Positions 1,892 to 12,903 of a stretch of DNA of 12,903 bases are shown in pieces (within the stretch, counting starts at the first letter, position 1; each line of letters starts with the position of its first letter). Location: contig JAQCER010000026.1 of the NCBI GenBank assembly GCA_027618625.1, forward strand, positions 1 to 12,903, written 5' to 3'. Source of the stretch: Verrucomicrobiota bacterium. Lineage in GTDB: Bacteria > Verrucomicrobiota > Verrucomicrobiia > Verrucomicrobiales > DEV007. The position numbers were made by a program, and so were the translations under genes. The notes below the pieces were generated by a model. The model ran no database searches. It saw only the letters and a list, made by a program, of their open reading frames with translations, and was not told the DNA's origin.

Positions 1892-3103
1892 CTACTGCCA
1901 AGGTAGGAGATAAGCGTCGACGGAGGTTCCCGCAGCGACCGAGCATTCCGGTTCGACACAAACCAGAGCATTCGCCTTCGATAGCGAGAACAGGGCGTGG
2001 GATTCCTGCAGTCCTAGTGGCTCGAAATGCGCGCCGGTGATGCGACCTCGGAACCAATGAGCGCGATCGCCCTTGTTGTGAATTTCTGCAGATGCGCTCA
2101 CGCTTACAACCGGGAGACTCAAGTCTGTTCCGGTGGCGCCCATCATTCTGCGCAACGAAGGGAAAACGAACAGCCAGAACGTGACGAAGGCAGATACCGG
2201 ATTCCCCGGCAGGCCGAACGCAAGGCGGCACCCCGTGGGATCGACTCCAAATGCCAGCGGCTTGCCTGGCTTCATGCGTACTCTCCAAAAATCCATCTCA
2301 TAGCCAGCCGCCAGCATCGCCGGGCGCACATGATCGTGGTCGCCAACCGAAACGCCTCCCGAGACAATGACTACGTCACATTGATCCGACAGGTCGCGCA
2401 GGCAGTCACTGAGCGTCGCCAGATCATCTCTGCAGTGTTCCACCCTGACACATTCACTACCAGAGGACACTACCAGCGCCTTGAGCATCGGGCCATTGCT
2501 GTTGTAGATGCAAGCTGAGGACGGCAGGGGCGCTCCAAGTGGAACCAGTTCGTCGCCAGTCGAAAGAATTCCAACCTTTGGGATGCCGCCAACTGTCACG
2601 TTCGCCCACCCCTGAGTCGCCAGAACAGCCAGCAGGGACGGCGTGATGCGCTGCCCCACTTCGGCGATGCGTTGTCCTGCGCAGACGTCGGCACCAGCCC
2701 GGCGGATGAACTCGCCGGGTTCGGCTGGAGTATCGAGCGTGACCGTGCCATCCGGGTGCGCGGTGACATCTTCCTGCATGATCACTGCCGCAGTTCCCGG
2801 GGGGACCGGAGCCCCGGTGAATACACGCACCGCTTGGCCATCGCCGACGGCAACAGTGGCTTCGCTACCGGCAGCGACCTCTGAAATAACCTGCAAACGC
2901 GATCGATCTCCGGAGCTGCCGCAATTTTTGCCCGCGATCGCATAGCCATCCATCGATGACTGGTCGAATCGGGGCAACGACAGGTGCGCCTGCATCGGCT
3001 GCGCGAGAAACCTCCCGAGTCCGGCGTCGAGGGCCACTTCGGAGGTTGCGAGTTGCGGAGTTTTTGCAAGTATGCGCTCCAGGGCATCGGTGGTGGTCAA
3101 CAT
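1892..3103 (-). CDS. moeA: Molybdopterin molybdenumtransferase MoeA
   Basis: MoeA is the cytoplasmic enzyme that inserts molybdate into adenylylated molybdopterin in the last step of molybdenum cofactor synthesis. The 403-residue length is normal for the family. Hallmarks in order are DQSSMDGYAI (residues 47-56), FTGAPVP (95-101), the MoCF-fold motifs STGDEL (181-186) and SGGVSVGDHD (248-257), MKPGKPLAFG (277-286), and GLPGNPVSAFVTF (297-309). The last region is the nucleotide/molybdopterin-binding loop area of the gephyrin/MoeA family. The C-terminal beta-barrel domain is present to the end. The start is the ATG at 3103; the frame is the only good one and the first residues (MLTTTDALERI) look like a normal MoeA N-terminus. 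No clear Shine-Dalgarno is visible, but a GC-rich inverted repeat lies 13-29 bases upstream. No other cofactor gene is in the window; the gene is divergent from the radical SAM operon and convergent with the zinc-ribbon gene. Confidence 0.96.
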   Translation of the reverse strand: MLTTTDALERILAKTPQLATSEVALDAGLGRFLAQPMQAHLSLPRFDQSSMDGYAIAGKNCGSSGDRSRLQVISEVAAGSEATVAVGDGQAVRVFTGAPVPPGTAAVIMQEDVTAHPDGTVTLDTPAEPGEFIRRAGADVCAGQRIAEVGQRITPSLLAVLATQGWANVTVGGIPKVGILSTGDELVPLGAPLPSSACIYNSNGPMLKALVVSSGSECVRVEHCRDDLATLSDCLRDLSDQCDVVIVSGGVSVGDHDHVRPAMLAAGYEMDFWRVRMKPGKPLAFGVDPTGCRLAFGLPGNPVSAFVTFWLFVFPSLRRMMGATGTDLSLPVVSVSASAEIHNKGDRAHWFRGRITGAHFEPLGLQESHALFSLSKANALVCVEPECSVAAGTSVDAYLLPWQ

Positions 3104-3168: not shown

Positions 3169-4677
3169 ATGACGTGGGCAGTGAGGCTGTCGGCCTGTTT
3201 CCCTGTCGGCGCCTTTCTTGAGAAGCTCAGGGCTCCTTTCCGCGTTCCATTGAATGACACTGAACATCAGCGGGAATTCGTCTGGTTTCCGAGCTTGTTT
3301 CCAGTCGTCGCAATCCGAGGCGGAAAGCTTGCATTTACCCCAGATGCTGGATCAATGTGGCCACGCTACCGCGACTCAGTCTCAAGTGGCTCCCACCTTA
3401 TGATATTTCAGCTCGGCAGCCGTATTTTGCGCACCACCGATCCCCGCCTTCTGCTGAAGATGGCGTGGAATTTCGGATTTAAAGGGGCGCGCTCGGTGCA
3501 ATTGTACAAAAATCGGATGAAGCGCGGCGAGTACTTCCCGGCGTTTCTCTACATTTCGATTTTGAACTCCTGCAATCTCCGCTGCCAGGGCTGCTGGGTC
3601 GATGTCGACAAGCCACAGGTGAAGATTGAACTCGATCAGCTGAATCGACTCGTGAATGAGGCAAAGGCCCACGGCAACAGCTTCTTCGGCATTCTTGGCG
3701 GTGAACCCTTCATGCATCCGGAGTTGTTCGACTTCCTCGCGCAGCATCCAGATTGCTTCTTCCAGGTCTTTACCAATGGTCAGCTGATCACCGAAAAGGT
3801 CGCAAAAAATTTGCGGCAGCTCGGCAATGTGACGCCGCTGGTGAGCATCGAAGGCTCCGAGATCATCAGCGACGAACGCCGTGGAAAACAGAACGTGCTC
3901 ACGCGCACGCTGCGCGGACTCGATCACTGCATCGAAAACAAACTGCTCACTGGAGTCGCCACCAGCCTCTGCCAGACCAACATCGGCGACCTGTTGACCG
4001 AAAAATGGCTGCGCACGCTCATCGATCGCGGCGTGCACTATGCCTGGTATCATACCTACCGTCCAGTCGGGCCGCAGATTCATGAGGAACTCGCGCTCAC
4101 CCGTGAACAGGCGCGGCAGGTTCGCCAGTTCGTAGTCGACATGCGGGCAAAATTGCCGATCGTTCTGGTCGATGCCTACTACGATCACAACGGCAAAGCG
4201 CTTTGTCCCATGGCCACCGGGATCAGCCATCACATTTCTCCAAAAGGTGCCATCGAGCCGTGTCCGATCATTCAGTTCGCGACCGACAACATCAACGACC
4301 AGCGCAACATCTTCGATGTGATGAATGGCTCGTCGTTCCTGAAGGACTTCCGTGAGACCGCTGCGCGCCACACCCGTGGATGTATCGTTCTGGAGCGGCC
4401 AGACATTGTGAAGGAACTGGCTCTCAAACATGGAGCGACCGACACCACCATACGCGGCACGGCGATCGCCGAACTCGACTCCATGTCGAAGAAGGGCAGC
4501 CAGGTGCTGGAGGAGGAGATTCCAGAGAAGCACTGGATGTACCGGATCGCAAAGAAGTTTTTCTACAACGATTTTGGTGTCTATAGTGACTTGCAAAACG
4601 TAATTGCTTCTGTACCAGGCAGTTCCGAGTCCGCCGGCAGCAAACCAGACGCAACACCAGAAAAAATTGCTTCGTAA
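3169..4677 (+). CDS. Radical SAM protein, first gene of the polyprenyl/iron-sulfur operon
   Basis: The radical SAM cluster motif CNLRCQGC is at residues 135-142 (Cys135, Cys139, Cys142), followed by the SAM-binding GGEP at 177-180. These coordinate a [4Fe-4S] cluster that cleaves S-adenosylmethionine to a 5'-deoxyadenosyl radical. Three further cysteines in the C-terminal third (346, 365, 405) have a SPASM/twitch-like layout and may hold an auxiliary cluster. The substrate is not evident. Its position ahead of an HdrA-like protein, a ferredoxin and a polyprenyl synthase suggests action on an isoprenoid or a prenylated molecule (inference). The start at 3169 has a Shine-Dalgarno. However, the first 77 residues have less biased third codon positions and look unlike the rest, so the protein may really start at the ATG at 3400 (425 residues). 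The stop is 8 bases before the next gene, implying one transcript. A long open frame on the opposite strand is a shadow of this gene. Confidence 0.9.
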   Translation: MTWAVRLSACFPVGAFLEKLRAPFRVPLNDTEHQREFVWFPSLFPVVAIRGGKLAFTPDAGSMWPRYRDSVSSGSHLMIFQLGSRILRTTDPRLLLKMAWNFGFKGARSVQLYKNRMKRGEYFPAFLYISILNSCNLRCQGCWVDVDKPQVKIELDQLNRLVNEAKAHGNSFFGILGGEPFMHPELFDFLAQHPDCFFQVFTNGQLITEKVAKNLRQLGNVTPLVSIEGSEIISDERRGKQNVLTRTLRGLDHCIENKLLTGVATSLCQTNIGDLLTEKWLRTLIDRGVHYAWYHTYRPVGPQIHEELALTREQARQVRQFVVDMRAKLPIVLVDAYYDHNGKALCPMATGISHHISPKGAIEPCPIIQFATDNINDQRNIFDVMNGSSFLKDFRETAARHTRGCIVLERPDIVKELALKHGATDTTIRGTAIAELDSMSKKGSQVLEEEIPEKHWMYRIAKKFFYNDFGVYSDLQNVIASVPGSSESAGSKPDATPEKIAS

Positions 4678-4685
4678 AGTCGCAG

Positions 4686-5072
4686 ATGTCCGAAATTTCG
4701 CCACAGTCCCACAGGATTCTCTATTGCCGCTGCGCCTATGCCAATACGGTGCCGCAGGGGGTGAAGGACGAGGTGTTGCAGCGCCTGAGCGACGCCGGGC
4801 GACCGTTCGAGGCGGTGTCCGACCTGTGCGAAATGTCCGCCAGTCGCGATCCACGATTGAAGAGCATCGCTGAAGGCAGTGGTTGTGTTAGGATAGCGGC
4901 CTGCTATCCGCGCGCCGTGAAGTGGCTGTTCCACGCGGCGGGTCATCCACTGCCGGAGCAGGGGATTGAGGTCGTGAATATGCGCGAGCTTTCCGGCGAG
5001 GAAGCCGCGGCACTGCTGCTCGACGGGAATATCGCATCTTCAACATCATCGCATACCTCAAGTCATGCTTAG
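4686..5072 (+). CDS. Small cysteine-rich protein resembling the HdrA N-terminal domain
   Basis: The protein has 128 residues with cysteines at 14, 16, 48, 67 and 73. The pattern is YCRCAYAN near the start, then DLCEMSASRDP, then IAACYPRAVKWLF. The spacing and surrounding residues recall the N-terminal iron-sulfur domain of heterodisulfide reductase subunit A, which reads roughly CxCG/N, then a single Cys in a 'MCSxxG'-like turn, then 'ASCSPR..LF'. The flavin domain of HdrA is absent. If the resemblance holds, this is a stand-alone electron-transfer module. It starts 8 bases after the radical SAM stop and overlaps the ferredoxin start by 8 bases, so the three are very probably co-translated. 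The Shine-Dalgarno is weak. The C-terminal tail after about residue 110 is Ser/Thr/Ala-rich and probably flexible. The family call rests on remembered motifs; existence of the gene is more certain than its function. Confidence 0.82.
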   Translation: MSEISPQSHRILYCRCAYANTVPQGVKDEVLQRLSDAGRPFEAVSDLCEMSASRDPRLKSIAEGSGCVRIAACYPRAVKWLFHAAGHPLPEQGIEVVNMRELSGEEAAALLLDGNIASSTSSHTSSHA

Positions 5073-5934
5073 TAACGACAACAGTCCGATACAAGTCATT
5101 ATTTACGAAGGCAAAGGTGCGTCCCCCCTCGCTGACGAGACACGCCTCGCCGTGCTCAGCCAGTTGCTCGACAAAGGATTCGCAGTGGCACTTGCAAAGG
5201 AAGGCGGCAGGGAGATTTCGGCCCCAACTTTGAAGGGAAAACAACGTCTCCTGGTGCTGGGGGATTTTGCCGGTGACGCACCGAGCCTGGAAGACGCTTC
5301 GGGTCAGGCATCGATTGAAACCGTTACCGTCTCTGGGCTTTCCGCGGACGAGGTTCTCGGCCGGGTCGAACAATTTCGAGAAGGTCAGCCGATGAATGAA
5401 CCCGGCAAGTGGAAGCCCTGGTTCCCGGTGATCGACTACGATCGATGCACCAATTGCATGCAGTGCCTCAGCTTCTGCCTGTTCGACGTCTACGGTGTCG
5501 ACACGGAGAACAGGATTCAGGTGCAGAACAATGACAACTGCAAGACCAACTGCCCGGCATGCTCGCGCGTTTGTCCAGAAGTCGCGATCATGTTCCCGAA
5601 GTATTCGGGTGGCCCGATCAATGGCGACAAGGTGAACACCCAGGACCTTGAGCGCGAGAAGATGAAGGTTGATATTTCGTCTCTGTTAGGGGGCGACATC
5701 TACGCCAGCCTCCGCACCCGCTCCGAGCAGGCAAAGTCCCGGTTTTCCAAGGAGCGGAGTCCGGACAAAGCGCTGAGTGAGCGCAAAAAATGCCTTACAA
5801 AGCTCCAGCAGGACGGTATGATCCCCGCCGAAGTGCTGGAAAACCTCCCATCTCCCGAAGAAATTCTACGCCGCGCGGCCGCCGCAGCGGCAAAAGCAGA
5901 TGTTGCCCTCAAAGCCCAAACATCCGCAAACTAA
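5065..5934 (+). CDS. Two-[4Fe-4S] ferredoxin with an extra N-terminal domain
   Basis: The centre of the protein has two cluster motifs: Cys128-x2-Cys131-x2-Cys134-x3-Cys138 and Cys159-x3-Cys163-x2-Cys166-x3-Cys170. The last is followed by Pro, as in bacterial-type ferredoxins. It should carry low-potential electrons, and the radical SAM enzyme encoded two genes upstream is the obvious acceptor (inference). The first 110 residues form a separate alpha/beta-like domain (VIIYEGKGASP near the start, a strand LLVLGDF at 62-68). This faintly recalls the N-terminal domain of eukaryotic-type biotin protein ligases, but I cannot confirm that. The C-terminal 100 residues are charged and helical, ending in an Ala-rich segment. 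The ATG at 5065 lies inside the last codons of the preceding gene (8-base overlap). At 289 residues it is far longer than a simple ferredoxin (55-80 residues). Confidence 0.9.
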   Translation: MLSNDNSPIQVIIYEGKGASPLADETRLAVLSQLLDKGFAVALAKEGGREISAPTLKGKQRLLVLGDFAGDAPSLEDASGQASIETVTVSGLSADEVLGRVEQFREGQPMNEPGKWKPWFPVIDYDRCTNCMQCLSFCLFDVYGVDTENRIQVQNNDNCKTNCPACSRVCPEVAIMFPKYSGGPINGDKVNTQDLEREKMKVDISSLLGGDIYASLRTRSEQAKSRFSKERSPDKALSERKKCLTKLQQDGMIPAEVLENLPSPEEILRRAAAAAAKADVALKAQTSAN

Positions 5935-5959
5935 TCGTCTCTCCTTTTTCTAATCTCTC
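5935..5959 (+). promoter_or_regulatory. Pyrimidine-rich leader without Shine-Dalgarno
   Basis: The 25 bases between the ferredoxin stop and the ATG at 5960 contain only three purines and no Shine-Dalgarno-like sequence. Initiation of the DUF116-polyprenyl synthase must be SD-independent, perhaps helped by ribosomal protein S1 binding to the U/C-rich leader or by coupling to the upstream gene. The base composition is directly visible; the mechanism is inference. Confidence 0.45.
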
Positions 5960-7738
5960 ATGAGCACGTTGACCTCCGAAATTGCCTCAATCGCACTGCC
6001 GAAAACGGTTCCGATCACGACCACCCGCGTTCGTCCACCGAAGAAAAATATTCCGCAGACCAAGGCCGAGCGCGATGCGCTGCTGGCGGCGATCCGCGAT
6101 TACGTCGAGGTACACAATCCCGTTCCTCCGATGCCTCAGGACGAGCTGGAAGTCCACGCCCGCAAAATCCATGCGATCACCGGCACAGCCGAGATTTACC
6201 TTCACTACACCGCAGTTTGTTTGAACAACGAAATGTGGCGGGAGACTCTGGCATCGATCCCCTACGAGCGCCGGTTGCTTTTGATGCCGAAATGTCTGCG
6301 CGTCGAAGACAAGTGTCCCGCGCCGTTCGACGAGTTCGGTCTCCTGTGCAAGCAGTGCGGACTTTGTACCATCCAGGATTTTCAAAATGAGGCCGAGCGC
6401 CTCGGTTATGCAGTCCTTGTAGCAGAGGGTTCGGCCGTCGTGATGTCGCTCATTCAGACTGGCAAGATCGAAGCCATCGTCGGTATCAGCTGCCTCGCAG
6501 TGCTTGAGCGCACCTTTCCATACGTAGAAGCCGCCGCGATCCCATCCGTCGCAGTTCCACTTTTGCAGGACGACTGTATCAACACTACCGTCGATAACGA
6601 CTGGGTGTGGGACTACATCCATCTCAGCAGCGAGGACAAAACCCGGCGCCTCAATCTTAACGCCCTGCACGATGACGTACGCACCTGGTTCGACCGCGAT
6701 TCGCTCGAAGCCATCATGGGCACGGCCAGTGGCCAAACCGAGTCCATCGCTCTCGACTGGATGGCGCGCGCGGGCAAACGCTGGCGACCATTCCTCACTG
6801 TCGCAGCCTATCAGGCGCTGCGTGACGATCGCGGCGAACCGATCCCGGATGACATCAAGAAGATCGCTGTTGCCGTGGAGTGTTTCCACAAGGCATCGCT
6901 CATTCACGACGACATCGAGGACGAAGATCACGAACGCTATGGCGAAAGCACGCTGCATCAGGAATACGGAGTGCCCGTTGCTTTGAACGTCGGCGACCTG
7001 CTCATCGGCGAAGGCTACCGCCTCATCGGTGAGTGCAATGTCAGTGACAAGCAGAAGACCGAGATGATCCTGGCGGCGTCCGTGGGGCAGCGCGAACTCT
7101 GCCGTGGCCAGGGGGCCGAACTCCTGTGGGCGCGCAATCCCGAAGTCCTCAAGAGCACCCAGGTGCTGGAGATTTTCCGCCAGAAGACCGCGCCAGCTTT
7201 CGAAGTAGCGCTTCAGGTCGGTGCTGCATACGCGGGTCATCTCGACGAAGTAGCCACCGTTCTCCACGAATACAGTGAAGCCCTCGGCATCGCTTACCAG
7301 ATCCGTGACGACCTCGACGACCTCTCCGAAGATTCAGGCAAGAACGAGCTTGGCACCATCCGCCCCAGCATCCTCCTGTCCACCACCTACGAGAAAGCCA
7401 AAGGAGAAGATCAGGAATTCATGGCCGAGCTATGGTCTGGAAAAAACGCCAGCGCCGACCTCGACCGCGTCCGCGCCCTGGCCCACGGCGTCCAGGCAGA
7501 CGACCGCTGCATGTTGCTTCTGGAATCGTATAAAGAGACCGCCATCCGCTCCCTCCAAAGCCTCGAAAACGCCAACCTCAAAGGCCTGCTCCGCCGAGTT
7601 CTCGGCAAAATCTTCAACGACCTTGAGATCAAAGGCTGGTGCCGCGAATACGAAGTAAAGAACGGCGTCCGCGAAGATGAAGGCACCCCTGGATCACCTA
7701 TGACGGAAGACGAAGTCTCAGCCGTAGCCGCAGGATAA
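5960..7738 (+). CDS. DUF116 - trans-polyprenyl diphosphate synthase fusion protein
   Basis: The protein has two domains in 592 residues. Residues about 60-230 match DUF116: LLLMPKCLR (Cys112), Cys119, then CKQCGLC (Cys130, 133, 136), a GISC motif (Cys178) and Cys206. These cysteines could bind a metal or iron-sulfur cluster. Residues about 245-560 are a trans-prenyltransferase of the polyprenyl synthetase family. It has GKRWRP (272-277), the first Asp-rich motif DDIED (317-321), GDLLIGE (345-351), KTAPAF (409-414) and the second Asp-rich motif DDLDD (450-454). All motifs for Mg2+-diphosphate binding and chain elongation with isopentenyl diphosphate are intact. The residues four and five positions before the first motif are small (Ser, Ala), which in this family usually allows longer products than C15/C20. 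It is the last gene of the operon. The ATG at 5960 follows a pyrimidine-rich leader. I know DUF116 and polyprenyl synthases as separate proteins; the fusion is unusual. Confidence 0.93.
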   Translation: MSTLTSEIASIALPKTVPITTTRVRPPKKNIPQTKAERDALLAAIRDYVEVHNPVPPMPQDELEVHARKIHAITGTAEIYLHYTAVCLNNEMWRETLASIPYERRLLLMPKCLRVEDKCPAPFDEFGLLCKQCGLCTIQDFQNEAERLGYAVLVAEGSAVVMSLIQTGKIEAIVGISCLAVLERTFPYVEAAAIPSVAVPLLQDDCINTTVDNDWVWDYIHLSSEDKTRRLNLNALHDDVRTWFDRDSLEAIMGTASGQTESIALDWMARAGKRWRPFLTVAAYQALRDDRGEPIPDDIKKIAVAVECFHKASLIHDDIEDEDHERYGESTLHQEYGVPVALNVGDLLIGEGYRLIGECNVSDKQKTEMILAASVGQRELCRGQGAELLWARNPEVLKSTQVLEIFRQKTAPAFEVALQVGAAYAGHLDEVATVLHEYSEALGIAYQIRDDLDDLSEDSGKNELGTIRPSILLSTTYEKAKGEDQEFMAELWSGKNASADLDRVRALAHGVQADDRCMLLLESYKETAIRSLQSLENANLKGLLRRVLGKIFNDLEIKGWCREYEVKNGVREDEGTPGSPMTEDEVSAVAAG

Positions 7739-8724: not shown

Positions 8725-9915
8725 TCACGGCTCCGGCGATTCGCCCGGTGTAACAACGGGAGACTCAACTTGCTCCTCGTCACCGTTCTCTACGGGCGGG
8801 GTCTCTGCCTCCACCGCTGGTTTTGGTTCAGGCTCGGGAGATGCTTCGTTCTCGGTGTAGATACGGGCGATCTCCAGCAGAATCGGTTCGGTAACAGCGT
8901 AGAATTGTGATTCATCCGCGTATTCAGTGCGCTTGCGGCTCAGTTCCAAGATCTGGCGCTCAAGAACATTGCGCCGACGTCGCTGGTCTGGCGTGAGCTT
9001 CATTTCATCCTCGTTGAGGACAAGACTCCAGAGCCGTGAGTAGTCGCCATCCACGATGCGGTTGGTACTGGTCTCGAAGCGCACAAGAAGTTCGAGTTCG
9101 CTTCCGCGACCGTCGCCGTTGTCATCGATGAGGGCGCTTTCTGTGGCGAGCAGGCCATTGGTCTCGTAGAACGCGCTGGTCTGGCGTGCTGCGTGGAGGA
9201 AACATTCGTAAACAGAGGCCTGGCCATCGTTGTTCAGGTCCGCTGACTGCAGCGCCCTGGCCATGAAGGTGCCGAAGCGAGTGTAATTGATTTCCGAGCC
9301 TTTTTTGGTCGCGGTAATAATGACGCGGCCTTCGCGGCTGAGTCTGTTCACGTAGGGGGCGCTGGCGGCACCGCCATGAATCAGAATGATTGGTCGCTTG
9401 AATTCGTCGAGCCATTCTCCCAAGTCGAGCGCACTAACATCTTCACCAGTGAGGTTGAAATTTGCCGCGGGCCGATGGTACGTGCCATGACCGATGAGCA
9501 CGATCCAGAGCGGGACGGGAGAATCCGGCTGCATCGCGGCGATCGATTCCTTGAGCTTTTCCCGCTGCTGTTCGTTTTCGGGGCCGATGTGGATCACTTT
9601 CGACATCCCTTTCTCACCGGCTTCTTTCCAAAGTTCGGCACTGGCGGCAAAATCTTCGGTGTAAGTCTCTTCACCGGGAGTGCCCTGAACGATGATCAGT
9701 TCTGCATTGACTTTTCCTTCGTCTGGGCCGGTTTCCGCTGGCGCTGCCTCTACCTCTACTTCTACTTCTACTTCCGGTGGTGCAACCGGTGCTGCTTCCC
9801 TTTCGTCCTGGGCGGGACAGGGGAGGGTGGTAGCGACCGCCACAGCCGCCAGCAGCGAGAACGGATACGCGCGTTGTAATTTGGTGAGGATATTCAATGG
9901 GTATCTTCTCATCAT
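8725..9915 (-). CDS. Exported caspase/C13-peptidase-like protein with EF-hand loops, catalytic Cys apparently missing
   Basis: A start at 9915 (ATGATG, 396 residues) is chosen over 9945 because it gives an ATGA overlap with the VWA gene stop and has GAGGGG 7 bases upstream. Residues 1-36 look like a signal peptide (basic start, hydrophobic LLAAVAVATTL, then PCPAQ). A low-complexity Val-Glu repeat follows (49-56). The core resembles caspase/legumain-type peptidases: VLIGHGTY with the His at 143, a strand PIILIHGGAAS (175-185) where the catalytic Cys would be expected, then ITATKKGSEINYTRFG (200-215). No Cys is present at the nucleophile position, so it is probably a non-catalytic member. Two EF-hand-like calcium loops follow: DLNNDGQASVYE (226-237) and DDNGDGRGSE (264-273). 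The C-terminal 40 residues are Pro/Glu-rich. A binding or scaffold role at the cell envelope next to the VWA protein is inference. Confidence 0.85.
   Translation of the reverse strand: MMRRYPLNILTKLQRAYPFSLLAAVAVATTLPCPAQDEREAAPVAPPEVEVEVEVEAAPAETGPDEGKVNAELIIVQGTPGEETYTEDFAASAELWKEAGEKGMSKVIHIGPENEQQREKLKESIAAMQPDSPVPLWIVLIGHGTYHRPAANFNLTGEDVSALDLGEWLDEFKRPIILIHGGAASAPYVNRLSREGRVIITATKKGSEINYTRFGTFMARALQSADLNNDGQASVYECFLHAARQTSAFYETNGLLATESALIDDNGDGRGSELELLVRFETSTNRIVDGDYSRLWSLVLNEDEMKLTPDQRRRRNVLERQILELSRKRTEYADESQFYAVTEPILLEIARIYTENEASPEPEPKPAVEAETPPVENGDEEQVESPVVTPGESPEP
9748..9774. repeat. Hexanucleotide repeat encoding Val-Glu
   Basis: About four and a half copies of a 6-base unit (CTCTAC / TTCTAC on the + strand) lie inside the caspase-like gene and encode the alternating Val-Glu run after the signal peptide. 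Slippage would change the length by whole Val-Glu pairs without breaking the frame. Confidence 0.7.
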
Positions 9916-12317
9916 GGCAGTCCCCTCAAGCGTTTGATGCCCCACTCAGCCATGAAGCAGGCGAGTGCCAGGATCAGCACCCATGGCGCGTGCCAGAGTG
10001 GACGACGTTTGGTTTCCATTACGGGAACGGATTTCTTCTCAAGTGTTTTCACCAGTTCGTCTACCTCGGAAAGTTTGATCACCTCACCTCCGGTGCGTGC
10101 AGAGAGTTCTTTGAGAAGATCGGCATTGCCAGTCAATCTCTGGAATTCCTCAAGGCCTGGATTGACGACCCAGCCGGCCTCGGTATTGCCAATGATTTCG
10201 TTTGCGCTGTCCTTGGCTACGATGGCTGCCCTATAGATTCCTTCGTGACCTCCGGAAAACTCAGCGGTGTAAAGACCTGGCTTCTCCAGAGAGAGATTAC
10301 CTTCGATCGTTTGTGCGTCTCCGTTAGGGTCGGTGATGGAAATTTCGACTGCGGCATCGCTCATCGGATCGTATTCACGGTTGTTGACGATCGTCTGGAT
10401 GCGGGCGGTGGGCAGGAACCGGCTCGAGTCGAGGATGATCTCGGTCTGCACTGGTCGAGGGACGTCGGCGATGAGCTTCCGGCACAGTTGCCGCTGGAAC
10501 TTGTAGAGATCCTCCATGCGCTGACGATTGCCCAGACTGCCTTTCCAGAGGTCAGAAACCGGGAGCACCATGCTACGGCCCTTGCCGAACGACTGCGTCA
10601 CCAGAGCGGGGTAACTGGTGGCGTCCGCGCCGCTGATCTGGTAGGAAGAAATGACGCTGGCCCCAGGTTTTGGGGCACCGATTTCGGCGATCGTATGGGC
10701 ACTTGGTGAGTTAGCCAGTCTCACTTCTTCGCTGGCGCGGTCGTCGCGCAGGCGTGCCCAGGGCTCCAGCCAGCCTTCACGCGTGAGGTCGAATTTCTGT
10801 TCAAATGGCGGTGGCGAGCCCTCTGGGAATTTGCCTTCGCGAATCCCCTGACTCCGATCGAGCATCGCTTTAGGATACCGCATTTCGCCTTCGATGAAAA
10901 CCGGTAGGACTTCGGCGATAGGGGTGTTTGCCCAGTTGCCATAAGCGAGTGAATGATTGCCACCGAGCATCAGGAATCCGCCTCCTCGCTTGGTGACGAA
11001 CTCGCGCACCAGAGACTGCTGATCCGCACGCAGGAATTCTGCTTCGACTCGATCGAAAATAATCGCGTCGTATCGGAACAGATCTTTTGCGACCAGTGGG
11101 AATCCTGTGGCAAATTCATTTTCATCGATCACGCCCAGGCGCTTGAGTACGGGCTGATCATAGGAAGCGTCCGTGGTGGCATCGGCATCAGCGCCGCGGA
11201 ACAGTGGGTTGGTGTCCTCTCCTTCACGGCTGAGAAATTCAAAGCGAGGCTCTTTTCTGGCAACGCGGATCAGGCGTACCAGCGACATCTGCTTATCTTG
11301 AGTGATCGCTCGATTGAGGAACTTGCCACTCGGCATAAAGGTTCCGGCGACATAGAGGATGCGGTAGGGGCCCTTTTCCCGATTGACGACAACGTATTGG
11401 GTATTGTTCTTCAGTGTTGCTTCCTGTTCTGTTCCTGTCTGCTCGACCTCGAGTTTGTAGAATGCGACTCCCGGTTGTTCCGGCTTGAGGCTGAAGTGCA
11501 CGCTCTGGACGTGCTCGACGCTTTCTCCGGTTGGCACCTTGAACGTCTGAGTTTCGAGCTTGTTCCCGTTTTCACCGTAGACGTTTATTGCCACATCCGC
11601 TCCCTGCGACTGACTCGAAATGATGTCGCCGCTGATCGTGATTGGCGAATCTTCGAAAATGCTTTGGGTAACGACAATGTTGCGGATCGTGCTGTCGCGA
11701 CCAGCGGCACCCTCAGCGGTATTCACGGTGTAGACCGGAGCAGGGAAATCGAGCTCGCCTGCTTCGGCCTGGAACCCGCTGATATTGCCATCTGTCATCA
11801 ACAATACGCCGCCGACGGGCTTGTCAGCATAGCGATCCCGCAGATCGGCGAGGGCAGATTGCAGTGTGGAGCTGCGTTCATCGAAATTCAGATCGGCAAA
11901 ATCGTCGCGTCGCAGGAGGCGTTCGCCGAAGGTGTAGTTGTGAACTTTGAAGCGCTCCTTGAGTTGTTCCTGCCACTGGTCGTCGCCGGTCTGATTCAGC
12001 ACCTCCTTCATCTGATCACTTCTGCTACTGGTAGCACCTTCTTCCGTGATTCCCTGGCTTTCGCTATTGTCAATGAGAGTGATGAAAAAGTTGGCACCCT
12101 TCTTGGCTACTTTCTGTTCCAGCACAGGCTCTAACAAAGCCAACAACAGGAGGACGATCCCGAGCATTTTGATCAGGCCGGCACCCAATCGCCAGCCTCG
12201 GAGTTCCGGCATCTTCCAATAGGTGATCGCCACGGAAATTACTGCCAATGCTGCTAGCAGCAGCAGCAGTGGCCACAGGGCTTTCTCCTGGAATTCTAAA
12301 GTCGCAATAAAAACCAT
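9912..12317 (-). CDS. VWA and glutamine-amidotransferase-like domain membrane protein
   Basis: The 801-residue protein has two N-terminal membrane segments (about 14-34 and 46-66), a large extracytoplasmic part and a C-terminal membrane segment (about 777-791) ending in basic residues. After the second span comes a von Willebrand A-like fold with a metal-site motif DNSES (83-87) and a second motif LLMTDGN (172-178). Residues about 415-600 look like a class I glutamine amidotransferase-like fold (KRGGGFLMLGGNHSLAYG at 443-460) without a nucleophilic Cys, so no amidotransferase activity is expected. A beta-rich region (about 625-720) precedes the last span. Such proteins occur in MoxR/BatA-type clusters of PVC and other bacteria. 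The start at 12317 (ATG) is 18 bases after the preceding gene's stop and has no Shine-Dalgarno. The stop overlaps the ATG of the caspase-like gene by four bases (ATGA). Long open frames on the + strand here are shadows. Confidence 0.9.
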   Translation of the reverse strand: MVFIATLEFQEKALWPLLLLLAALAVISVAITYWKMPELRGWRLGAGLIKMLGIVLLLLALLEPVLEQKVAKKGANFFITLIDNSESQGITEEGATSSRSDQMKEVLNQTGDDQWQEQLKERFKVHNYTFGERLLRRDDFADLNFDERSSTLQSALADLRDRYADKPVGGVLLMTDGNISGFQAEAGELDFPAPVYTVNTAEGAAGRDSTIRNIVVTQSIFEDSPITISGDIISSQSQGADVAINVYGENGNKLETQTFKVPTGESVEHVQSVHFSLKPEQPGVAFYKLEVEQTGTEQEATLKNNTQYVVVNREKGPYRILYVAGTFMPSGKFLNRAITQDKQMSLVRLIRVARKEPRFEFLSREGEDTNPLFRGADADATTDASYDQPVLKRLGVIDENEFATGFPLVAKDLFRYDAIIFDRVEAEFLRADQQSLVREFVTKRGGGFLMLGGNHSLAYGNWANTPIAEVLPVFIEGEMRYPKAMLDRSQGIREGKFPEGSPPPFEQKFDLTREGWLEPWARLRDDRASEEVRLANSPSAHTIAEIGAPKPGASVISSYQISGADATSYPALVTQSFGKGRSMVLPVSDLWKGSLGNRQRMEDLYKFQRQLCRKLIADVPRPVQTEIILDSSRFLPTARIQTIVNNREYDPMSDAAVEISITDPNGDAQTIEGNLSLEKPGLYTAEFSGGHEGIYRAAIVAKDSANEIIGNTEAGWVVNPGLEEFQRLTGNADLLKELSARTGGEVIKLSEVDELVKTLEKKSVPVMETKRRPLWHAPWVLILALACFMAEWGIKRLRGLP

Positions 12318-12335: not shown

Positions 12336-12903
12336 TTACTTCCCTTTGCCGAGTTCTTCGTAGTATTTCTGCACCAGCTCTGAGTAGGCTTCGGGCACAG
12401 GGTCCTTGTCGATGGGTACCAGCTTCTGTTGATCATCCCCCAGTCGCGTCAGTTCGTCCTCAACGCGTGAGTTGAGTTCGCCGAGAGGATTGAGGACGTA
12501 ATTCTTGATCGTCTCCTGGGTTGGAACCTTGCTGGTGCGTTTCAGGTCGCGGAGCATTTCCTTTACGTCGTCCTTAATCTGACCAGCGGAACCCCGCATC
12601 TCCGGATCGTCGAGAATGTCTTGAACGTCGCCCAGTTTTTCTACCCAGTCCCGCATGGCTTCGTCGGGATCTTGAGGTGTTTGCTGCTGGCCGGTGGGAT
12701 TGTTGCCTGCCTGTGGCTGCCCCATGCCACTTGTTCCTCCGGCATTGGGAGATCCTGTGCCGTCAAGTGTAGGCCGTGGGCTGCGGCCCTGATCGCCGGG
12801 TTGCTGACCACCGGGTTGCTGACCACCGGGTTGCTGACCACCGGGTTGCTGACCACCGGGTTGTTGACCGCCGGGTTGTTGACCACCGGGTTGCTGTCCT
12901 GTT
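12336..12903 (-). CDS. C-terminal part of a Gly-Gln-Gln-Pro-repeat/helical protein (5' partial)
   Basis: The frame is open from the TAA at 12336-12338 to the right edge of the window, so the start lies beyond 12903; the ATG at 12725 is internal. The visible part begins with a GQQPG pentapeptide repeat (7 units), then a Gly/Pro/Asn/Gln-rich linker. It ends in a charged, helical domain of about 110 residues finishing VPEAYSELVQKYYEELGKGK. Long proteins with Gln-rich linkers and a similar 'VPxxYxxxVxxYY' end (DUF4175-like) often precede VWA/GATase proteins in PVC and related bacteria, so this is probably the same type, but the defining N-terminal part is not in the window. It is first of the three visible genes of this block, 18 bases ahead of the VWA gene. 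Confidence 0.82.
   Translation of the reverse strand, partial: TGQQPGGQQPGGQQPGGQQPGGQQPGGQQPGGQQPGDQGRSPRPTLDGTGSPNAGGTSGMGQPQAGNNPTGQQQTPQDPDEAMRDWVEKLGDVQDILDDPEMRGSAGQIKDDVKEMLRDLKRTSKVPTQETIKNYVLNPLGELNSRVEDELTRLGDDQQKLVPIDKDPVPEAYSELVQKYYEELGKGK
12791..12895. repeat. 15-bp in-frame tandem repeat (7 units) encoding GQQPG
   Basis: Seven head-to-tail copies of GACCACCGGGTTGCT (+ strand). The first unit (12791-12805) and the two at 12851-12880 carry base changes that are mostly silent; the unit nearest the linker changes a Gln to Asp. The unit is a multiple of three, so copy-number changes keep the frame. There are no spacers, so this is not a CRISPR array. Confidence 0.92.

Follow-up and report, generated by a model that had tools for sequence, protein, structure and literature searches.

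A four-gene unit on the plus strand of contig JAQCER010000026.1 from a Verrucomicrobiota bacterium (GenBank assembly GCA_027618625.1; order Verrucomicrobiales, DEV007) belongs to a wider set of genes, which seems to serve the synthesis of a terpenoid. The unit encodes a radical S-adenosylmethionine (SAM) protein, a cysteine-rich protein of 128 residues (SML), a dicluster ferredoxin (FDX), and a fusion of a DUF116 domain with a polyprenyl synthase (hereafter the fusion). The larger set, referred to as the module, also has genes for a single α-toroid protein, a squalene-hopene cyclase (SHC)-like protein, a CobW-like GTPase, and a GcvH-like protein. The module is often broken up, yet its genes are largely retained or lost together. 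The four genes and the terpene cyclase are likely to work in one and the same pathway. The fuller reading, in which these genes form a dedicated terpenoid-lipid pathway of Verrucomicrobiota working by the mechanism proposed below, is given a probability of about 0.5. The window analyzed here is the entire contig of 12,903 bases, and its parent assembly is 71% complete.

Co-occurrence across genomes

Presence of the genes was scored in 57 genomes, all from the window's order or more closely related and the window's own genome among them, with contig-end fragments counted as present. Homologues of all four window genes occur together in 33 of the 57 genomes, whereas 17 have none and 7 have a part of them. 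With all four in 33 genomes, the grouping is more than chance. Counted singly, 37 genomes have the fusion with homology across both domains, 38 the radical SAM protein, 39 FDX, 37 SML, 39 the toroid, 41 the SHC-like protein, and 37 the CobW-like protein. The fusion matches are separated by a clean gap, those counted having E ≤ 8.7e-219 and the next being 2.6e-44 or weaker. All six core genes are present in 32 genomes, none in 14, and a part in 11. Exceptions are G003 and G006, which have the toroid and the SHC-like protein without the four window genes, and G025, which has the SHC-like protein alone.

The same association is seen in 387 genomes sampled across the phylum. The fusion (E ≤ 1e-60) was found in 64 and the SHC-like protein in 61; 60 genomes have both, and 322 have neither. 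Only the fusion was found in four (G000, which is the window's own assembly, G259, G337, and G385), and only the SHC-like protein in one (G291). These counts are lower bounds, because at most three candidates were scored per genome. Fisher's test gives a p value of 2e-64, a statistic that ignores shared ancestry. The original prediction, made from the DNA of the window, had described a unit of four genes; the real set is larger and contains a terpene cyclase.

Gene order in relatives

In the window the four genes are separated by 8, −8, and 25 nt. This unit had been predicted with the same open reading frames (ORFs) and spacings and is real; only the start of the radical SAM gene had to be corrected. 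In the locus L023 (contig JAUIAH010000032.1), eight genes run on one strand in the order GcvH-like protein, CobW-like GTPase, radical SAM protein, SML, FDX, fusion, α-toroid, and SHC-like protein, with the four genes of the window in the middle. Loci from other families of the phylum, whose fusions are 34–58% identical (40 loci, hereafter the distant loci), can have the core on a single strand as SML/FDX, radical SAM protein, fusion, toroid, and SHC-like protein, as in L205, L208, L210, L211, and L213. A fusion ORF was read in 38 of the 40 distant loci. Its neighbours are the radical SAM protein in 24, SML in 18, FDX in 26, the toroid in 26, the SHC-like protein in 20, the CobW-like protein in 5, and the GcvH-like protein in 3; 6 loci have none of them.

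A scan of genome contigs gave 198 relatives of the fusion, the best 80 of which are the named loci. The fusion ORF was readable in 79 of the 80. On the same strand and within 10 kb of it are 9 radical SAM, 14 SML, 18 FDX, 12 toroid, 7 SHC-like, 7 CobW-like, and 8 GcvH-like genes (the last counted, as throughout, from the neighbourhoods of loci), and 59 loci have none of the seven. These are lower bounds, because many of the contigs are short. Among the relatives that have both genes of a pair, the two lie at most 10 kb apart in 10 of 35 for the fusion and the radical SAM protein, 15 of 37 for the fusion and FDX, 31 of 36 for FDX and SML, and 22 of 39 for the toroid and the SHC-like protein. 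In the sister genome G001, the four genes, the toroid and SHC-like pair, and the CobW-like and GcvH-like pair are found at three separate places, the toroid and SHC-like genes being on a different contig from the four. The original prediction had named scattered homologues as a point that would count against it. In many genomes the genes are indeed scattered, as the fusion and radical SAM pair indicates, but they stay in the same genomes.

The titles of all 80 named loci refer to Verrucomicrobiota groups, and most are metagenome-assembled genomes (MAGs). Carriers of the fusion by title include Prosthecobacter, Phragmitibacter, Chthoniobacter, and Akkermansiaceae. Two records are titled as strains, Brevifollis gellanilyticus NBRC 108608 and Verrucomicrobium sp. 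BvORR106; none of the module genes sought was found near the fusion gene in either. A lake MAG titled Akkermansia muciniphila (L071) has the fusion at 68% identity, and its name is probably loose.

The DUF116-polyprenyl synthase fusion

Both halves of the fusion score above their Pfam cut-offs (25 bits for DUF116, PF01976, and 27 bits for the synthase; Table 1). In 30 aligned sequences, the aspartates D317, D318, and D321 of the first motif of the synthase are invariant, and D450, D451, and D454 of the second are nearly invariant. The residue at position −5 from the first motif is an invariant alanine. Alanine is likewise found there in the octaprenyl synthase 4jxn and in 3oyr, whereas the geranylgeranyl diphosphate synthases 1wy0 and 5jfq have Tyr and Phe, respectively. 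This site presumably sets the chain length in polyprenyl synthases. At least one additional synthase match outside the fusion is present in 36 of 37 fusion-bearing relatives; therefore, the copy in the fusion is probably not the housekeeping one.

The DUF116 half has seven cysteines (C112, C119, C130, C133, C136, C178, and C206) that are invariant in 30 aligned sequences, with a CxxCxxC motif at 130–136. This pattern suggests that the domain may hold Fe-S clusters. The mean predicted local distance difference test (pLDDT) score was 84 for the model of residues 1–245. Against the PDB, Foldseek gave no match at E ≤ 0.001 and the sequence comparison gave two rows at E 0.5. The HdrA N-terminal domain was considered as a fold or profile relative of DUF116 and of SML; the best-placed row for an HdrA complex lay within the noise. 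DUF116 is also found in methanogens among the control genomes. The relation of DUF116 to SML was examined with hhalign and rejected (probability 0.1%). An IspH-like role of DUF116 may be considered, in which the long polyprenyl chain loses its diphosphate by reduction at a [4Fe-4S] cluster, or is coupled through that group, so that DUF116 and the radical SAM protein yield a polyprenyl hydrocarbon to be cyclised by the SHC-like protein independently of squalene. As a joint claim this would be a long shot.

The fusion itself is not new. In section 3.6 of PMC5898192, the same domain fusion is described as Psta_0175 of the planctomycete Pirellula staleyi, and DUF116 is predicted to bind metal (at least six cysteines, CxxCxxC), to adopt a flavodoxin-like fold, and to transfer electrons. 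The mention of Psta_0175 there is of one sentence; the radical SAM, SML, FDX, toroid, and cyclase partners and a terpenoid pathway do not appear in that section.

The radical SAM protein, SML, and FDX

The radical SAM protein belongs to its superfamily: the Pfam match scores 51.4 bits against a cut-off of 29.5, and C135, C139, and C142 are invariant in 30 aligned sequences. Three further cysteines (346, 365, and 405; numbering of the 502-residue frame) are also invariant. The ORF was originally listed from 3169; however, the true start is probably the ATG at 3400, corresponding to residue 78, because 23 of the 30 aligned sequences (with script-picked start sites) have at most 10 residues ahead of this position, and the pLDDT of residues 1–72 in the predicted structure is below 50. 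A second radical SAM gene piece in the window's own assembly (G000:C618:872-1327), 73% identical to residues 188–339, is either a paralogue or contamination.

The top-ranking solved folds are anSME, which modifies proteins, and two peptide maturases, SkfB and SuiB; viperin and BlsE score nearly as high. The substrates of the latter two are small molecules. GDGT-MAS/Tes (PDB 7tol), which acts on archaeal lipids, ranks below the peptide maturases, BlsE, and viperin, with 16% identity over 253 aligned residues. The ranking bears on the idea that the radical SAM protein matures a protein or peptide, and that the terpenoid genes prenylate or decorate this substrate. The toroid, whose profile is weakly like the β subunits of protein prenyltransferases, would fit such a role, and the GcvH-like protein, in which the lipoyl-lysine context is intact, could be a carrier or the substrate. 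However, viperin and BlsE are almost equally close; the DxC zinc motif typical of protein prenyltransferases is missing from the toroid, whose conserved columns contain no Cys; and neither the closely spaced unit of the window nor the L023 run has room for a precursor gene, which would have to lie elsewhere. Maturation of a peptide or protein is thus considered very doubtful.

SML has four cysteines, C14, C16, C48, and C73, that are invariant across 24 aligned sequences. It gave no Pfam or NCBIfam match, and its profile had no credible match in the PDB (one row, E 0.78). Since a family match is absent and the four cysteines are invariant, SML is regarded only as a putative Fe-S protein. FDX exceeds the Pfam cut-offs for Fer4_2 (26.2 bits) and Fer4_10 (25.9 bits), and eight cysteines are read in its sequence. 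Fe-S type motifs had been predicted in three products: Pfam agrees for the radical SAM protein and FDX, and for SML the assignment comes from the invariant cysteines. Both SML and FDX were read in 34 loci (the window included); in 17 of these, all distant loci, they form a single ORF. Such a gene fusion argues that the two proteins work together and, with the co-occurrence, agrees with the prediction that the four genes belong together. The predicted placement of a prenyl synthase beside a radical SAM enzyme and Fe-S proteins was also borne out.

Partner genes outside the window

The SHC-like protein is a class II (DXDD) terpene cyclase by its SQHop_cyclase Pfam domains (SQHop_cyclase_C, 136.5 bits; cut-off 26.1) and its DXDD motif. 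The motif reads PDxDD in 23 of 23 sequences, x being Ala in 22 and Gly in L226, and is aligned with PDVDD of solved SHC. A hopanoid-type pathway is to be weighed, in which PF00494 enzymes provide squalene for cyclisation by the SHC-like protein, the radical SAM protein adds an adenosyl group to the polycycle as HpnH does, and the fusion supplies a precursor. PF00494 is present in all 57 relatives; one of the two copies scanned is best matched by HpnD (240 bits, under the cut-off of 278.6) and the other by phytoene synthase. In addition, the gcvH-cobW pair adjoins a PF00494 gene in G002 and is one gene apart from it in G010. The scores point the other way: the two SHC-like members compared with the hopene cyclase model TIGR01507 reach 114.5 (L057) and 91.2 bits (L210) against a cut-off of 431.1, and the radical SAM protein reaches 36.6 bits against 225.05 for HpnH (TIGR03470). 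On these curated cut-offs, hopanoid membership of the module enzymes was rejected. Neither a long-chain synthase nor DUF116 is known to take part in making hopanoids, and a hopanoid-type pathway seems rather unlikely.

L273 (G003) has the toroid and SHC-like genes but lacks the four genes of the window; within 10 kb of them lie an additional polyprenyl synthase gene and one resembling HpnD/CrtB. The LepA and signal peptidase genes next to the PF00494 gene in L280 were regarded as housekeeping neighbours, not module parts. The toroid (PF00432) was not adopted as a zinc protein prenyltransferase. A GcvH paralogue is found near the module in 11 loci (e.g. L023:5901-7485 and L100:6816-8546), 9 of which also have the CobW-like GTPase.

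Several distant loci have ferredoxins and propellers near the core. NapH-like, NapG-like, and NHL-propeller proteins, whose family names were taken from the members in L210, form clusters in 12, 11, and 10 of the 40, respectively. These ferredoxins and propellers lie near the core in L208, L210, L213, L217, L220, L221, and L235, which represent several Verrucomicrobiota families, and PQQ-type propellers are also near core genes in some of these loci. They are a possible membrane redox partner. The module genes might then make a quinone-like terpenoid carrier for the NapG/NapH-like ferredoxins and β-propellers, with DUF116 transferring electrons, a role proposed for this domain in PMC5898192. 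However, few genomes of the window's order have NapH-like proteins (10 of 57 with any match at 1e-10, 4 of them strong), and these proteins were rejected as a core part there. Furthermore, no aromatic prenyltransferase or quinone gene is found among the neighbour proteins that were annotated, a subset of the total. A redox carrier of this kind is judged quite improbable.

Other features of the window

The MoeA/Glp-like gene, divergent from the four-gene unit, is also beside the unit in L022, of the same genus, and has no match in the sequence covered for the remaining 79 named loci. Scanning the window for Rfam families and tRNAs gave no hit.

Table 1. Positions of genes, domains, and other features in the window
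Feature	Position	Strand	Remarks
Radical SAM protein	3400..4677 (listed ORF from 3169)	+	CxxxCxxC, residues 135-142; twitch/SPASM-like
SML, 128 aa	4686..5072	+	Four invariant Cys
FDX, 289 aa	5065..5934	+	8-Cys dicluster ferredoxin domain, residues ~119-174
DUF116-polyprenyl synthase fusion, 592 aa	5960..7738	+	Pfam DUF116 120.6 bits, polyprenyl_synt 144 bits
DUF116 domain	6167..6616	+	Seven invariant Cys
Polyprenyl synthase domain	6761..7447	+	First motif D317-D318-x-x-D321; second motif D450-D451-x-x-D454
MoeA/Glp-like gene	1892..3103	−	
ORF	8725..9945	−	No Pfam match; neighbour of the next ORF
Large ORF	9912..12317	−	Only a sub-threshold GATase1-like match
Tandem repeat	12796..12896		15-base unit, 6.7 copies; inside a minus-strand ORF coding a GGQQP-type repeat

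Proposed pathway

Isoprenoid synthesis combined with radical chemistry is plausible for this gene set. In the proposed terpenoid-lipid pathway, the synthase half of the fusion would make a long polyprenyl diphosphate. The DUF116 half, as an Fe-S redox domain, might hold or reduce the bound chain. SML and FDX would deliver electrons of low potential both to DUF116 and to the radical SAM enzyme, and the latter would functionalise the isoprenoid by radical chemistry. The chain may then be cyclised by the SHC-like class II cyclase together with the toroid protein, and the CobW-like and GcvH-like proteins could be accessory proteins for maturation or carriage. The product is most likely a long-chain lipid of the terpenoid class that has been cyclised. 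Observed directly are the gene set, its co-occurrence, the domain identities, and the conserved catalytic motifs, from which the Fe-S clusters of DUF116 and SML, the reactions of DUF116 and the radical SAM enzyme, the sequence of steps, and the product are inferred. The original prediction had also allowed for a quinone or a prenylated cofactor; because the SHC-like, toroid, CobW-like, and GcvH-like proteins belong to the module, a cyclised terpenoid is preferred.

Relation to known systems and significance

The hopanoid pathway consists of HpnCDE, HpnF/SHC, and HpnH. It shares with the module an isoprenoid precursor, a DXDD class II cyclase, and a radical SAM enzyme. In contrast, the module has a long-chain-type synthase fused to DUF116, two cysteine-rich proteins, and the toroid, and its SHC-like and radical SAM proteins are far under the HpnF-type and HpnH cut-offs. 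The sporulene pathway of Bacillus (HepST, YtpB, and SqhC) is similar in that a long-chain prenyl diphosphate is followed by an SHC-family cyclase; it is not known to have radical SAM or Fe-S proteins. The archaeal tetraether synthase GDGT-MAS/Tes is a further point of comparison, at the low identity and rank of 7tol given above.

On a contig of Opitutales, PMC8692599 names a cluster with a squalene-hopene cyclase and assigns it to hopanoids; this cyclase could be of the same kind as the SHC-like protein. No paper on the module was found in the open-access literature, a search outside which most subscription papers fall, in agreement with the original statement that no pathway with this exact set had been described. 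The module as a whole appears to be undescribed, the fusion being already known from PMC5898192.

Since the fusion occurs in records titled as strains, lipid analysis looks feasible. DUF116, a family of unknown function, gains a first testable substrate, polyprenyl diphosphate. If the IspH-like reading were true, there would be an additional bacterial route to polycyclic membrane terpenoids. If the terpenoid-lipid pathway proposed here is true, the module would represent terpenoid biosynthesis of a new type, and its product might serve as a new lipid marker for Verrucomicrobiota.

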